Shown in pieces: positions 30,798 through 50,100 of a DNA stretch of 64,000 nucleotides; the stretch's first letter is position 1; each line of letters begins with the position of its first letter. The stretch is from the NCBI GenBank assembly GCA_903871545.1, contig CAIQHG010000034.1, forward strand, positions 1-64,000, given 5' to 3'. Source of the DNA: an uncultured Burkholderiales bacterium (GTDB taxonomy: Bacteria; Pseudomonadota; Gammaproteobacteria; Burkholderiales; Burkholderiaceae_C). The notes beneath the pieces are model-generated. The model did no database searches, was not told the origin of the DNA, and worked only from the letters and a program-made list of their open reading frames with translations. The translations under genes and the position numbers were made by a program.

Positions 30798-32282
30798 ATG
30801 AACAACAGCAAATCCAAAGAACATAAAACAACCTGCGAAGTTACTTCACTTATACAAGGATACGAGGTCGTAATCGGCTTTGAAACCCATGCACAACTTT
30901 TAACTAAAAGTAAAATTTTCTCCAGAGCCTCGACTCAGTTCGGAGCAGCACCTAACACCCAAGCCTGTGCGGTGGATTTGGCTCTTCCTGGAGCGCTGCC
31001 CGTAATGAACATCAAAGCCGTCGAGTGCGCCATTCGCCTAGGCCTGGCCTTGGGTTCTTACATCTCTGCAAAAAGCATATTTGCAAGAAAGAATTATTTT
31101 TATCCCGATTTACCAAAGGGTTACCAAATCAGTCAATTCGAAATACCCGTGGTGCAAGGTGGTGAGGTGCAGTTCTTCTTGGGAGAGCAGCCCAAAAAAG
31201 TTCGCTTAGTTCGCGCTCATTTAGAGGAAGACGCTGGAAAGTCTTTGCATGAAGATTTTGTTGGACTAAGCGGCATTGATTTAAACCGCGCTGGAACGCC
31301 ACTTTTGGAAATAGTAACCGAGCCTGATATGAGGTCAAGTCAAGAGGCGGTTGCTTACGCAAAGGAGCTGCACAAAATAGTGACCTGGATTCAGGTCTGC
31401 GACGGAAACATGCAAGAGGGCTCATTTCGGTGTGACGCAAATGTCTCCGTTAGAAAGCCTGGGCAGCCTTTAGGTACTCGGCGTGAAATAAAAAACCTCA
31501 ACAGTTTTAAATTCATGCAACAAGCCATTGACTACGAGGTTCTTTGGCAAATTGAGCAACTTGAGGACAATAAAGAAATTCAGCAAGCAACTGTTTTGTT
31601 TGACCCTGAAACCGGCGAAACAAGAAGCATGCGAACCAAAGAAGACGCAGCCGATTACCGCTACTTCCCCGACCCCGATCTCCCCCCCCTTGAGATATCA
31701 GCAGACTGGATCGAACAGATTCGGGCCTCCATGCCCGAACTTCCCCGCTCCATGGCCGAGCGTTTCATCAAAGAATACGCCTTACCCATTTACGACGCTT
31801 CAACACTAACGCAAAGCCCTCAAATGGCAGCTTTTTTTGAGGAGACCGTCCGCCACTGTGGCCAACCCAAACTTACAAGTAATTGGGTTATGGGGGAGCT
31901 TTCGAGGAAGTTAAACGAGGAGAGCGTTCAGATAGAAGCCTGCCCAGTAAGCGCTTTGCAGCTAGGCGCTCTTATTTCTAGGGTTGCTAATGCAGATATC
32001 TCCAACAGCTCTGCCAAGACCCTCTTGGATGCCCTTTGGTCTGACCCCAGTGCGGATATAGATGCTTTAATCCAGTCTAAAGGACTTAAACAGGTTAACG
32101 ATATAGGCGCGCTTGAAAAACTCATCGACTCTATCATCGCCGCAAACCCTGATAACGTCACTCAGTTCAAGGCAGGAAAAGAAAAAGCCTTCAATTCTCT
32201 TATCGGACAAGCGATGAAGGCCAGTAAAGGACAAGCCAATCCACAGCAACTAACTGAGCTTTTAAAAAAGAAGCTTCAGTAA
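30798..32282 (+). CDS. gatB: Aspartyl/glutamyl-tRNA amidotransferase subunit B
   Basis: A 494-residue subunit that phosphorylates and amidates Asp- or Glu-t[25 protein letters not shown] begins the catalytic cradle, and [44 protein letters not shown] and [10 protein letters not shown] are standard GatB blocks. The YqeY-like tail domain is present at the C-terminus ([23 protein letters not shown]). About 20 residues precede the core. It converges on pyrE with only 6 nt between stop codons. Confidence 0.97.
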
Positions 32283-32288
32283 AGATCC

Positions 32289-32987
32289 CTACGACCTTGG
32301 ACCGTACTGATCACGGTAGATCTGAACATTTTTCAAATGCTGCGATAGTTTAGGATCTTTGCTGGTTCTTAAAAAGGCCAAAAGGTCCTCGAGCAACGAA
32401 ATTGTTGATACTTTAAGCCCTAGCTCTAAGCGAACATAATCTACCGCGCTGTGCGCGGAATCCACTACTTTTCCCTCTTCAACAAAAGTGGCTCGCTCTT
32501 GGCGGTCAAGCGCGATCGCGATTGCGTAGGGCTGGGCACCTGCAGCGTTAATTAAATTGATTGACTCCCTAACCGCTGTACCTGCGCTTATGACGTCGTC
32601 TATGATAAGAACGCGACCCTCTAACTCCGCGCCCACAATTTGACCTCCTTCACCGTGGTCTTTTATTTCTTTGCGATTGTATGCAAAGGGGACAATTTTT
32701 CCTAACCGGGCAAGCTCTACGCTAACTGCAGCTCCAAGGGGAATTCCTTTATAAGCAGGACCAAAAATCATATCAAACTCTAGTCCGCTTGTTAGAATAC
32801 GCTCAGCGTAAAACTGCGCTAGTTTGCCAAGTTTTTGCCCGTCATTGAATAGGCCTGCATTGAAGAAATACGGGGATATACGGCCTGCCTTAGTTTTAAA
32901 TTCACCAAACTTTAAAACACCACAATCTAGCGAGAACTGAACAAAATTCTGGGCTAAATCATCCCCTTGCGAATTTATACTTTTCAT
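32289..32987 (-). CDS. pyrE: Orotate phosphoribosyltransferase
   Basis: A 232-residue enzyme of pyrimidine synthesis joining orotate to PRPP to form OMP. The N-terminal part FGEFKTKAGRISPYFFNAGLFNDG and PAYKGIPLGAA are diagnostic; the PRPP-binding motif is VLIIDDVISAGTA. The C-terminus is about 15 residues longer than in E. coli. It lies head to head with exoA across only 14 nt, so its promoter must lie within or beyond the exoA coding start. Confidence 0.96.
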   Translation of the reverse strand: MKSINSQGDDLAQNFVQFSLDCGVLKFGEFKTKAGRISPYFFNAGLFNDGQKLGKLAQFYAERILTSGLEFDMIFGPAYKGIPLGAAVSVELARLGKIVPFAYNRKEIKDHGEGGQIVGAELEGRVLIIDDVISAGTAVRESINLINAAGAQPYAIAIALDRQERATFVEEGKVVDSAHSAVDYVRLELGLKVSTISLLEDLLAFLRTSKDPKLSQHLKNVQIYRDQYGPRS

Positions 32988-32988
32988 T

Positions 32989-33000
32989 AAAGGAACCTTT
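32989..33000. promoter_or_regulatory. Palindrome serving as ribosome binding site for both pyrE and exoA
   Basis: The 12-mer AAAGGAACCTTT reads AAAGGTTCCTTT on the other strand. On the plus strand AAAGGA precedes the TTG of exoA by about 7 nt; on the minus strand AAAGG precedes the ATG of pyrE by about 8 nt. Both divergent genes thus use the same 12 bp for initiation. Confidence 0.6.
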
Positions 33001-33001
33001 T

Positions 33002-33793
33002 TTGTACAAACTTATTTCACTAAACCTCAACGGAATTCGCTCTGCCTACAAAAAGGGGGTCGAAAACTGGTTGAATCAAATAAAAGCCGATTGTATTTGC
33101 GTTCAAGAGCTCAAAGCTCAAAATGATGATGTACAAGATTCTCTCCTGCACTTAGCAGGCCTAAAGGGATACTTTCACTTTGCTCAAAAAAAGGGCTATT
33201 CCGGTGTTGGCATTTATTCCCGCCATGAACCCTCTGACGTTAAGATTGGTTTTGGATCTAATGAGTTTGATGCTGAAGGTCGCTACTTAGAGCTTTGCTT
33301 TGACACCCCCTCCCGCAAACTCTCCATCATAAGCGGCTACTTTCCAAGTGGCTCATCGGGGGAGGAACGGCAAGAGGCGAAATACCGTTTTTTAGACCAA
33401 ATGGAGCCTCATATTAAAGGGCTTAAAGGCTCGCGTGAGTTTATTTTATGCGGCGATGTAAATATAGCGCATCAAGAAAAAGATCTAAAAAACTGGAAAA
33501 GCAATCAAAAAAATAGCGGCTTTTTACCTCGCGAAAGACTGTGGATGACAAAACTCATTAACGAAATTGGGGTTAAAGATGTGTACCGACTCCTACACCC
33601 GGACACTACAGATGAGTGCTACACCTGGTGGAGCAATAGGGGACAGGCGTGGGCCAATAATGTGGGTTGGCGTTTAGATTATCAACTAGCGACGGAGAAA
33701 ATTGGGGCTCTTGCAAAGACATGTCAAATACACAAGGCAGAGCGTTTTTCCGATCACGAGCCACTTATTATTGATTACGATTTTTCTCTTTGA
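33002..33793 (+). CDS. exoA: Exodeoxyribonuclease III / AP endonuclease
   Basis: A 263-residue Mg-dependent enzyme of base-excision repair in the ExoIII family. LNLNGIRSA, CVQELKAQ (metal-binding Glu36), WRLDYQLAT and the terminal FSDHEPLIIDY with the catalytic Asp-His pair are all present. The start is TTG with a good ribosome binding site (AAAGGA); no in-frame ATG lies near. The ExoIII relative xthA is the alternative name. Divergent from pyrE with 14 nt between the start codons. Confidence 0.93.
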   Translation: MYKLISLNLNGIRSAYKKGVENWLNQIKADCICVQELKAQNDDVQDSLLHLAGLKGYFHFAQKKGYSGVGIYSRHEPSDVKIGFGSNEFDAEGRYLELCFDTPSRKLSIISGYFPSGSSGEERQEAKYRFLDQMEPHIKGLKGSREFILCGDVNIAHQEKDLKNWKSNQKNSGFLPRERLWMTKLINEIGVKDVYRLLHPDTTDECYTWWSNRGQAWANNVGWRLDYQLATEKIGALAKTCQIHKAERFSDHEPLIIDYDFSL

Positions 33794-46219: not shown

Positions 46220-48937
46220 TTATATGTTAGGAGCTAACAACCTTCTCAGCGCGTGTTCTTCAGTTCCTTGCCTTTTAGCTAAATCACTAACTTGGTCCGC
46301 CCCAATTCTTCCTACGTTGAAGTATTTAGCACTTGGGTGAGCGATATAAAAGCCGCACACACTAGCCGCGGGAGACATAGCAAGGCTTTCAGTCAAAGAC
46401 ATCCCAATGTCGGTGCATTGCAAAACATTAAACATTTCCTTTTTAACACTGTGATCTGGACACGCGGGATACCCTGGAGCCGGGCGAATTCCAACGTACT
46501 TTTCTGCAATTAAGTCTTGAACACTCAAGTCCTCCTCATCGCTGTAACCCCAAAGGTCCATTCTCACCCTAGCATGAAAGCACTCTGCCATGGCCTCAGC
46601 TAAACGGTCTGCTAATGCTTTAAACATAATTGCACTGTAGTCGTCGTGATCGTCCATGAAAAATTTTTCCCTCAACTCCACCCCTATGCCGGACGTCACT
46701 GCAAACATGCCGACATAGTCAGCGACTCCGCTTTGCCCAACAAAATCGGACAAACACCTATTGGGGCGACCATCGGGCTTTGTTGTTTGCTGGCGCAGTC
46801 CTGACCAAGTCAACAACCTGTCTCTTCTCGTTTCATCGCTCCACAAAACAATATCGTCCCCGATCGCGTTTGCAGGATACAAACCCACTATCGCTTGAGC
46901 CGTTAACCATCGACCGTCAATCAAGCGAGTAAGCATTCTTCTTGCATCACTCATGAGACGCACCGCTTCCGCGCCCACAACATCGTCTTTAAGAATAGCT
47001 GGATAAGGGCCCGCCAGATCCCATGTTTGGAAAAAAGGTCCCCAATCTATAAACTTTTCAAGATCCGATAAGTTAAAGTTTTTAAATACCCTTCGTCCAA
47101 TAAATTTGGGGACAGTTGGCTTGTAATTGATCCAATCTACTTTTGCTTTATTTTCTCTGGCTTTTGTAAGCGTTAAAAGCGGAGTTTGTTTTTTATTGGC
47201 ATGCTGGTGTCTTACGCGGTCATAGTCCGCATTTAGCTCTTCAATAAAAGCACTTGCCTTGTTAGATAAAAGTCCCTGCGCTACTCCCACGCTCCTTGAT
47301 GCATCCGGGACATAAACCACTGGGCCCTCATAATGAGGTGCAATTTTCACCGCCGTGTGAACGCGACTGGTTGTTGCACCACCTATTAACAAGGGTATCT
47401 TGCGGATCCTAAAGTAATCATCCTTTTGCATCTCACTTGCAACATACTGCATTTCCTCCAAACTTGGCGTAATCAAACCCGATAGCCCAATAATGTCTGC
47501 ACCTTGAATTTTTGCATTCGCAAGTATTTCGTGGCAGGGCACCATCACGCCCATATTGACTACATCAAAATTATTGCATTGCAGTACAACTGTGACAATA
47601 TTTTTACCGATATCATGAACGTCACCTTTGACTGTTGCGATGACTATTTTCCCTTTGGTTTTTACCTCTTCGCCTGCCTCTTTTTGTCTTATTTTTTCTG
47701 CCTCTATGTAGGGAATCAAATGCGCCACAGCTTGCTTCATGACCCGAGCAGATTTGACAACTTGTGGTAAAAACATCTTGCCTTGGCCAAATAAATCACC
47801 AACAATGTTCATGCCCTCCATCAGCGGGCCCTCAATCACCTCTAAGGGTCGGCCCCCGCGTAATAAGATCTCCTGATAGGCCTCTTCTGTGTCTAAGGTA
47901 ATGAACTCTGTGATGCCGTGTACCAATGCATGAGACAACCGCTGGGTGACATTAACTGGACTGTCTAAGCTCCCTCGCCAACTATTTTTTTCGCTCACAT
48001 CTTTTGCAGACCCTTTGGCCTGCTCTGCAACCTCAATCAATCTCTCTGCCGCATCCTCTCTGCGGTTTAAAACCACGTCCTCAACTCGCTCCTTCAATAC
48101 TGGCTCTAAATCGTCGTAAACTCCGATCATTCCCGCATTTACGATGCCCATGTCCATTCCTGCTTTAATGGCATGGTAGAGAAAAACGGTGTGAATTGCC
48201 TCCCTTACTGGGTCATTGCCCCGAAAAGAAAAACTGACATTGGAGACCCCCCCAGAGACCTTTGCACCAGGCAGGTTTTGTTTTATCCAACGCGTTGCAT
48301 TTATAAAGTCAACGGCGTAATTGTTGTGCTCCTCAATTCCCGTAGCTACCGCAAATATATTCGGATCAAAGATGATGTCCTCGGGCGCAAAATCCAATCT
48401 CTCGACTAGTAGTTTATAAGCGCGCGCGCAAATCTCAATTTTGCGCTCATATGTATCAGCTTGACCTTTTTCGTCAAACGCCATCACCACGGTTGCGGCT
48501 CCGTAGCGTTTGATGAGTTTGGCTTGACGCAAAAACTCCTCCTCTCCCTCTTTCATGCTGATGGAGTTAACGATCCCTTTGCCCTGTAAACAGCGTAGTC
48601 CAGCCTCTATAACTGACCACTTGGAGCTGTCCACCATTATTGGGACTCTTGCTATGTCGGGTTCAGAGGCAAGCAAGTTAAGAAACTTAACCATCGCAGC
48701 TTGGCTATCAAGCATGGCCTCATCCATGTTGATATCTATAATTTGCGCTCCATTTTCGACCTGTTGTCGAGCAACTTGAAGAGCCTGTTCGTACTCTTCG
48801 TTTAGGATCATACGAGCAAAGGCTTTTGAACCAGTTACATTAGTGCGCTCACCAATGTTGACAAACAATGTGCTTTGGTCAATCAACACTGGTTCTAATC
48901 CAGCAAGCCGAAGTGGGGATATATTATCTAAATTCAT
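46220..48937 (-). CDS. metH: Methionine synthase, folate/cobalamin/activation part
   Basis: A 905-residue protein with the last three MetH modules: the pterin-binding domain ([28 protein letters not shown]; about 25-300), the cobalamin domain with [10 protein letters not shown] and its lower-ligand histidine, and the AdoMet-binding reactivation domain ([13 protein letters not shown]). It lacks the homocysteine domain, which is encoded by the next gene upstream, so the enzyme works in trans as two polypeptides. Its AGGTGAG ribosome binding site lies in a hairpin controlled by an SAH riboswitch. Splitting of MetH is common in Burkholderiales. Confidence 0.96.
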
Positions 48938-48942
48938 TCACA

Positions 48943-49032
48943 CTCACCTGAAGATATTGAACAGGTGAGCGTGGTTAGATTTTTTGAATTGTCCCAAGCC
49001 TGTCAAATAAATTTGATGCAACGCTCCTTGGT
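48943..49032 (-). promoter_or_regulatory. S-adenosylhomocysteine (SAH) riboswitch controlling metH
   Basis: Minus-strand order: P1 arm CCAAG, the conserved GGAGCGTTGCA, a small P2 hairpin (TCAAA/TTTGA), AGGC, P1 partner CTTGG, a linker, then ACGCTC, which pairs perfectly with GAGCGT as the family's pseudoknot. This matches the SAH riboswitch consensus (GAGGAGCGCUGC...AGGCUCG...GCGCUC). The ACGCTC strand (48967-48972) overlaps the first three bases of an 8-bp anti-Shine-Dalgarno arm CTCACCTG (48962-48969), which otherwise pairs with CAGGTGAG just 5 nt before the ATG. SAH binding should free the ribosome binding site and turn translation on. The assignment is from motif memory, not a covariance search. 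Confidence 0.85.
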
Positions 49033-49053
49033 CATTAAATTTTACTACTTTTT

Positions 49054-50100
49054 TTATTCTGCGTAAAAAACGCCTCTGGTAATTTTTCTCGTCTGCAAGC
49101 TATCCACGCTTTTTGCAATGGCCGCGATATGCTCGGGCGTTGTCCCACAACACCCGCCTAAAATATTAACAAGTCCGCTGCTTGCAAAATCATGCAACAA
49201 ACGGCTAGTTACCTCTGGGGTCTCATCAAAGCCCGTGTCACTCATTGGATTTGGAAGGCCTGCGTTAGGATAGCAACTTATAAAGGTGTCTACAGCGATC
49301 TTCGACAACTCTTGCATATAAGGTCGCATTAGTGCCGCCCCTAGGGCACAATTTAATCCAACGGCCAAAGGCTTTGCATGTCTAATGCTGTGCCAAAAAG
49401 CCGTAACCGTTTGCCCACTTAATATACGCCCCGAAGCGTCCGTAACCGTACCGCTTATGATCAATGGCAATCTTTCCTTGGATTGATCAAAATACTCTTC
49501 AATCGCAAATAGGGCTGCCTTAGCGTTTAAGGTATCAAATATAGTCTCAACCATCAACACATCAGCCCCATTTTCCACCAAAGCTTGTACTTGCTGAAAA
49601 TAAGCCGCTCTGAGCTCCTCAAATGTCACATTCCTAGCTCCTGGGTCATTGACATCAGGGGATAAACTGGCAGTTTTAGGGGTAGGTCCAAGGGCCCCTA
49701 CAACGAAGCGGGGTTTGTCCGCCGTTGAAAACTCATCGCACGCGCGACGTGCCAGCTTTGTGGAAGCCGCATTCATCTCTACTGCGTACTCTTGCATGTC
49801 GTAATCTGCTTGAGCAATCGTTGTGGCACCAAAAGTATTGGTCTCTATTAAATCAGCACCTGAAGCTAAGTACCCGCGGTGAATATCCAAAATCACATCG
49901 GGTCGAGTTAAGCTCAATAATTCGTTGTTACCTTTAACGTCTTTGTGAAAATCTTTAAACCGTTCTGATCTAAAGTTTTCCTCCGTCAATTTAAAACGCT
50001 GAATCATGGTCCCCATTGCCCCGTCTAATATGGCAATTCTCTTTCTCAATATTCCAGGCAATTCCTTAGCTCTGGTGTATGTGTTATCTGGCGTTTTCAT
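49054..50100 (-). CDS. Methionine synthase, homocysteine-binding part
   Basis: A 348-residue homocysteine S-methyltransferase domain protein, equivalent to the N-terminal module of E. coli MetH. It opens with RIAILDGAMGTMIQRF, and the zinc ligands are Cys251 (GLNCALGA), Cys317 and Cys318 (GGCCGTTP). It must act with the downstream 905-residue protein, which supplies folate, cobalamin and reactivation domains. The two genes are 116 nt apart with an SAH riboswitch between. A stable-looking hairpin lies in its own leader. Betaine- or S-methylmethionine-dependent methylation is less likely given the neighbour. Confidence 0.94.
   Translation of the reverse strand: MKTPDNTYTRAKELPGILRKRIAILDGAMGTMIQRFKLTEENFRSERFKDFHKDVKGNNELLSLTRPDVILDIHRGYLASGADLIETNTFGATTIAQADYDMQEYAVEMNAASTKLARRACDEFSTADKPRFVVGALGPTPKTASLSPDVNDPGARNVTFEELRAAYFQQVQALVENGADVLMVETIFDTLNAKAALFAIEEYFDQSKERLPLIISGTVTDASGRILSGQTVTAFWHSIRHAKPLAVGLNCALGAALMRPYMQELSKIAVDTFISCYPNAGLPNPMSDTGFDETPEVTSRLLHDFASSGLVNILGGCCGTTPEHIAAIAKSVDSLQTRKITRGVFYAE

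Follow-up and report, generated by a model that had tools for sequence, protein, structure and literature searches.

Candidate promoter elements embedded in opposite coding sequences at a compact, divergent pyrE-exoA locus of Burkholderiales

Introduction

When two divergent genes are separated by little more than their ribosome binding sites, where are their promoters? This question is raised by pyrE and exoA, which stand head to head in the 64 kb window (i.e., the whole stretch of 64,000 nucleotides that was analyzed). An earlier note on this DNA had proposed that the two genes share a 12-bp palindromic ribosome binding site, that the promoter of each must lie inside the other gene, and that the two mRNAs have complementary 5' ends of unknown length. 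The closeness and orientation of the genes would by themselves predict promoters nearby. Here we ask where these might be placed, using comparison with related genomes.

Results

The gene pair and its start codons

The genes and the gap between them are as follows.

32289..32987, minus strand: pyrE, orotate phosphoribosyltransferase, 232 aa, ATG start (TIGR00336, 178 bits, above cut-off)
33002..33793, plus strand: exoA/xth, exodeoxyribonuclease III (AP endonuclease family), 263 aa, TTG start (TIGR00633, 239 bits, above cut-off)
32988..33001, no strand: intergenic gap of 14 nt, TAAAGGAACCTTTT

The distance of 14 nt between the divergent start codons, as given previously, was an exact count. Both start codons are unambiguous: on inspection of the two genes, no alternative in-frame ATG, GTG or TTG was found upstream of the conserved core of either, so that initiation elsewhere, which the earlier note had named as its own refutation, is unlikely. 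The columns of the ExoA catalytic motifs GD-N-H and SDH were invariant in A1. Across the window, eight other ORF pairs are divergent, with spacings of 86-517 nt compared with 14 nt here, and it is this tight spacing that is remarkable, unlike the palindrome taken alone.

Shine-Dalgarno sequences on both strands of the gap

Three features lie within the gap.

32989..32995, plus strand: exoA Shine-Dalgarno sequence AAAGGAA (-5.6 kcal/mol to the anti-SD)
32995..33000, minus strand: pyrE Shine-Dalgarno sequence AAAGGT (AAAGGU in RNA; -3.4 kcal/mol to the anti-SD)
32989..33000, no strand: imperfect inverted repeat AAAGG-AA-CCTTT (10/12 on comparison with its own reverse complement)

Each strand does therefore carry a Shine-Dalgarno sequence, AAAGGAA for exoA and AAAGGU for pyrE, and the small gap would contain nothing but these two, adjoining or overlapping. 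The 12-bp sequence AAAGGAACCTTT is not a perfect palindrome, however: its reverse complement is AAAGGTTCCTTT, which agrees at only 10 of 12 positions, and it is better described as an inverted repeat of 5-bp arms around a central 2 bp, AA. The idea of a single shared palindromic site thus stands in a loose sense, in that the two Shine-Dalgarno sequences adjoin or overlap; as to the palindrome, it is imperfect in the window, although a perfect version, AAAGGATCCTTT, was found in the nearest relatives (the sister genomes L003 and L004). While AAAGGNNCCTTT occurs once in the window, about 260 of its 12-mers are at least 10/12 self-complementary. Because such 12-mers are common, and because back-to-back Shine-Dalgarno sequences automatically form an inverted repeat, the palindrome by itself is little informative.

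The named relatives found with exoA belonged to Burkholderiales, and closest among them were Comamonadaceae and allied genera such as Acidovorax, Limnohabitans, Rhodoferax and Variovorax; pyrE and exoA are divergent in most loci across the order. It is the tight spacing that Comamonadaceae and allied genera keep, the perfect palindrome being reported in the two sister genomes. The commonest spacing among relatives, exactly 10 nt from start to start, occurs in 36 of 100 order-wide loci with usable starts; the gap in the window's clade is slightly wider, at 13-14 nt. The typical 10-nt junction reads CAT-GGGGAATTCC-TTG, in which GGGGA is the exoA Shine-Dalgarno sequence and CAAGGAA that of pyrE, the latter overlapping the complement of the exoA TTG start. 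TTG is the exoA start in 50 of 55 aligned genes, and this overlap may account for the retention of such a poor start codon.

Some loci depart from this pattern. Two (L073 and L075) have lost the exoA TTG, and exoA there likely starts at the ATG inside a CATG that is common with the pyrE start, i.e., with overlapping start codons. Some members of the window's own genus (L140-L146) have a divergent exoA, 55-58% identical and starting with ATG; in those whose contig also includes pyrE (L140 and L142-L146) the gap is 138-315 nt, and the local exoA has possibly been replaced.

A conserved pyrE element inside exoA

A simple consensus promoter scan of the window gave no excess over shuffled sequences. 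When exoA was shuffled among synonymous codons, the only clear promoter-like excess on the pyrE side lay 88-107 nt upstream (5.09 versus 2.52; mean z 1.64). A match further away (TTTAGA-17-TATATT, 473 nt upstream of pyrE) was among the strongest single-genome scores, and was rejected as not above the synonymous-shuffle null. The region of excess contains the following candidate.

33090..33095, minus strand: candidate pyrE -10 hexamer TACAAT, antisense in exoA codons 30-32 (GAT TGT ATT)

The hexamer, read from 33095 to 33090, ends 102 nt before the pyrE ATG, and would place the transcription start about 7 nt downstream, at approximately 33083.

Among the 55 aligned exoA genes of the family, codon 30 was [GC]AT in all, codon 31 was TGT in 54 and TTT in one, and codon 32 was ATT or ATG; read on the pyrE strand, all 55 have TACAAT or TAAAAT, which agree with TATAAT in having A at position 2 and T at position 6. 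The lone TTT, which substitutes Phe for Cys, yields TAAAAT, still a good -10. The adjacent Cys33 varies (TGC in 26, TGT in 24), and at other positions of exoA most Asp and Ile codons end in C (GAC:GAT 567:226; ATC:ATT 401:156). A genome pattern search allowing GAY and TGY returned 107 matches from 54 genera, every one with T at both synonymous third positions; a looser pattern matched in 198 of 301 genomes, with G513, G415, G344, G460, G547, G424 and G446 as exceptions among the matches listed. In GC3-rich members of the family, AT-ending codons reach 100% at exoA codons 30-32, versus a background of 16%, making this the strongest such island in exoA. On sequence comparison, then, TACAAT is essentially invariant in tight-gap relatives, including those with GC-rich genomes.

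Could this conservation reflect a constraint on the ExoA protein (Asp-Cys-Ile) or on its mRNA, with no pyrE element at all? The hexamer does fall in a conserved stretch of ExoA. Yet the synonymous T's are fixed where the neighboring Cys33 is free to vary, the single Phe comes as TTT and so preserves TAAAAT, and the element disappears where pyrE has moved away and survives in the non-coding stubs next to it (see below). This explanation is already contradicted, and we consider it extremely improbable.

The element follows pyrE rather than exoA

We counted the motif in 154 distinct loci of the family, defining head to head as pyrE within 60 nt. In the first count, 121 head-to-head loci had the motif and three did not, while of those with pyrE farther away or absent three had it and 27 did not. 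Two loci (L010 and L021) were then reassigned, being contig ends at which the pyrE start and the gap are visible, and one (L091) was taken out as belonging to another lineage. The corrected figures were 123 with and two without the motif among tight loci, and one with and 27 without among separated ones (Fisher 1.4e-26, kinship ignored). The exceptions were L184 and L185, with a tight gap and no motif, and L076, with the motif and no pyrE. On an exoA tree built after masking the codons of the motif itself, the motif changed seven times and the arrangement eight; independent contrasts on supported branches gave about three in the same direction and none in the opposite one, events so few that a sign test was not significant.

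Three rearranged loci bear on which gene owns the element. At L024 a repeat has been inserted between the genes, and the motif is lost; the insert is a REP-like repeat, AATTGGGGTCAGACCCCAATT, which separates pyrE and exoA by about 160 nt. At L186 and L187, exoA lies 516 and 832 nt from pyrE, respectively, and a stub about 130 nt long, homologous to the exoA 5' end, stays beside pyrE with its reading frame broken, although both are draft MAGs and the arrangement is repeated in no close relative. These stubs retain CCTTGTTCAA(A/G)TTAACCAGCC next to the Shine-Dalgarno sequence and, at 95-100 nt from the start of pyrE, ATTGTATTTG, which contains TACAAT; the stub in G460 matches the same genome's own exoA start at 69%. 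The functional, moved exoA copies read GATTGCCTT and have lost the hexamer. Because the stubs beside pyrE keep TACAAT and the moved exoA genes have lost it, the element follows pyrE, not exoA, and on this comparative evidence TACAAT is a pyrE element.

A separate block, CCTTGTTCAAATTAACCAGCC, just upstream of the pyrE Shine-Dalgarno sequence (exoA codons 2-9 in relatives), also displays synonymous conservation. It is kept in the decayed stubs of L186 and L187 and lost in the window's clade.

What kind of element is TACAAT?

We infer that TACAAT acts as a -10 of the sigma-70 type. Variation in the hexamer is confined to position 3 (C in 60, A in two), with T1, A2, A4, A5 and T6 fixed, among loci pre-selected with that pattern. 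Upstream of it, no TTGACA-like -35 is conserved at 15-18 nt (3/6 at 19 nt), a TTGA occurs at 13-nt spacing, and the extended -10 motif TGn is absent before the hexamer. Because there is no conserved -35 at normal spacing, a standard sigma-70 promoter for pyrE is not proven, and this promoter may depend on an activator or belong to an unusual class. On inspection by eye, a sigma-32-like interpretation of CTTGA...CCCCAT was rejected because the spacing is wrong.

The same want of a -35 would suit an operator, or another kind of site belonging to pyrE. Variation at position 3 only, in these pattern-selected loci, is what would be expected of a -10 hexamer, however, and no dyad was seen by eye; we regard a site other than a -10 as quite unlikely.

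A search of Rfam gave no match at the pyrE/exoA locus. Elsewhere in the window, on the minus strand at 46220-50100, the methionine synthase MetH is split into two ORFs, a 348 aa N-terminal and a 905 aa C-terminal part, between which lies a SAH riboswitch (RF01057, 48960-49035), 22 nt upstream of the second half.

A weaker candidate counterpart inside pyrE

Two sequences inside pyrE could serve as the -10 of exoA.

32793..32798, plus strand: candidate exoA -10 TAGAAT, antisense in pyrE codons 64-65 (within CGT ATT CTA)
32976..32981, plus strand: alternative exoA -10-like sequence TATACT in pyrE codons 3-4, window only

In pyrE the top island of AT-ending codons spans codons 58-61 (frequencies of 0.88, 0.88 and 0.73 at codons 58, 60 and 61, versus 0.19, in GC3-rich members); on the exoA strand it reads TAGAAT or TAAAAT. 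Of 122 tight loci, 90 had TANAAT in pyrE codons 58-60 (among GC3-rich ones, 73 of 79), compared with none of 12 separated loci (Fisher 5e-7). The position is not constant, and many low-GC relatives are without TANAAT; the TAGAAT of the window's clade (common to L001, L003, L004 and L005) is six codons off the family position. With moderate confidence, TANAAT in pyrE probably serves exoA, as a weaker mirror of TACAAT; from the TAGAAT of the window, exoA transcription is predicted to start about 7 nt downstream, at approximately 32805. An apparent synonymous constraint in pyrE codons 97-112 was set aside, being due to preferred C-ending codons in the catalytic loop.

The second sequence raises the possibility of plain gene compaction, with the gap and the dual Shine-Dalgarno sequences a by-product of deletion bias, and with promoters just outside the gap, very short leaders and little overlap. 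TATACT does sit just before the gap in the window, and some more distant relatives (e.g., L104, L107 and L112) have TAAAAT- or TGGAAT-like sequences at the pyrE start codon. Nevertheless, TATACT occurs in only one of 52 pyrE 5' ends, there is no synonymous constraint in the first pyrE codons, and the conserved pyrE element is about 100 nt upstream, away from the gap. Compaction of this sort appears improbable.

A proposed model with promoters face to face

Comparison among relatives establishes the tight spacing, the dual Shine-Dalgarno sequences and, for the pyrE element, both constraint at the nucleotide level and association with pyrE. The reading that we think likely is of a compact divergent pair whose core promoters would be reciprocally embedded in the opposite coding sequence, face to face. 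Thus, pyrE would be transcribed from TACAAT in exoA codons 30-32, and its leader, about 95 nt long, would be antisense to the exoA ribosome binding site and to codons 1-27 of exoA. Transcription of exoA would begin from the -10 in pyrE (at codons 58-60 across the family, and as TAGAAT at codons 64-65 in the window's clade), its leader, about 200 nt long, would be antisense to the pyrE start, and polymerases from the two promoters would converge. The exoA promoter and both transcription start positions are placed by sequence features, as is the resulting overlap.

32805..33083: predicted region transcribed on both strands, about 279 bp, with complementary mRNA 5' ends and both ribosome binding sites inside (from the two candidate -10 elements)

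The earlier proposal that each promoter lies inside the opposite gene is in this way supported by position-specific nucleotide conservation, strongly for pyrE (TACAAT) and moderately for exoA (TANAAT), and the length of the complementary 5' ends, previously left open, can be estimated from the candidate -10s at about 280 bp in the window.

Might the overlap have a function, such that pyrE and exoA repress each other because their RNAs pair, are cleaved by RNase III, or are made by polymerases that collide? The family as a whole keeps the arrangement, and both ribosome binding sites lie inside the predicted double-stranded stretch; on the other hand, the genes are separated in several lineages, and weak activity of both promoters could render interference negligible. 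We treat a functional excludon as a tentative and rather doubtful proposal. Because genomes with separated pyrE and exoA exist, the 5' overlap is dispensable in evolution. A still bolder version, to which we give slightly less credence, is a family-wide dual-coding lock, in which codons 30-32 of the DNA-repair enzyme ExoA would be dictated by its neighbor's promoter, and the converging promoters would couple pyrimidine synthesis (pyrE) to base-excision repair (exoA) through mutual exclusion, either transcriptional or antisense.

Finally, exoA might be the distal part of a noncontiguous gatCAB-exoA operon, with pyrE antisense inside it. The window has the gatB-pyrE-exoA geometry, with the gatB and pyrE stop codons 6 nt apart (32282-32289) and no strong terminator between them. 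Most relatives, however, have 600-900 nt between gatB and pyrE, occupied by an ORF co-directional with pyrE, so that such an operon is not the ancestral logic; we judge it very unlikely.

Discussion

Comparison of pyrE-exoA loci appears to offer a clear instance of a regulatory element that is preserved within the codons of a different gene across a whole bacterial family, and in which natural experiments (an insertion, a relocation and a decayed stub) assign the element to its own gene. It also counsels caution, in that a neighbor's promoter may impose conserved residues or codons on a protein. If the promoters converge and the 5' ends overlap in antisense as predicted, the effect on two housekeeping genes would be testable by single synonymous changes. 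A search of the literature found no map of transcription start sites for Comamonadaceae.

Several known systems invite comparison. The pR and pL promoters of phage 186 are arranged face to face, with transcriptional interference. The predicted arrangement at pyrE/exoA is alike in having converging polymerases and opposed promoters a few hundred base pairs apart or less, and differs in that it concerns a bacterial housekeeping pair with promoters predicted inside coding sequence.

Excludons with long overlapping 5' UTRs, such as Listeria mogR (reviewed in PMC7154746), likewise involve divergent neighbors whose mRNAs have complementary 5' ends, each antisense to the other, as predicted here. The pyrE/exoA overlap would be short (about 280 bp) and reciprocal, with promoters inside the opposite coding sequences, and would join two housekeeping genes; membership of the class requires overlapping transcripts, predicted here from the candidate promoters, and mutual repression.

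Bidirectional promoters with pseudo-symmetrical elements (Warman, Grainger and colleagues; PMC12825309) resemble this locus in that a symmetrical sequence serves two divergent genes within little space. At pyrE/exoA, however, it is the ribosome binding sites that are symmetrical, and the predicted promoters are separate, face to face and about 280-290 bp apart; the candidate elements, about 290 bp from each other, are neither shared nor overlapping.

An AP-endonuclease family gene also adjoins pyrE in the Pseudomonas pyrE-crc-rph region, so far as can be told from its citation (MacGregor 1996, cited in PMC3662782); beyond that one citation, we found nothing on pyrE-crc divergence in the open-text literature. 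Crc no longer has the catalytic Asp and Asn (PMC3662782), whereas the ExoA of the window retains GD-N.
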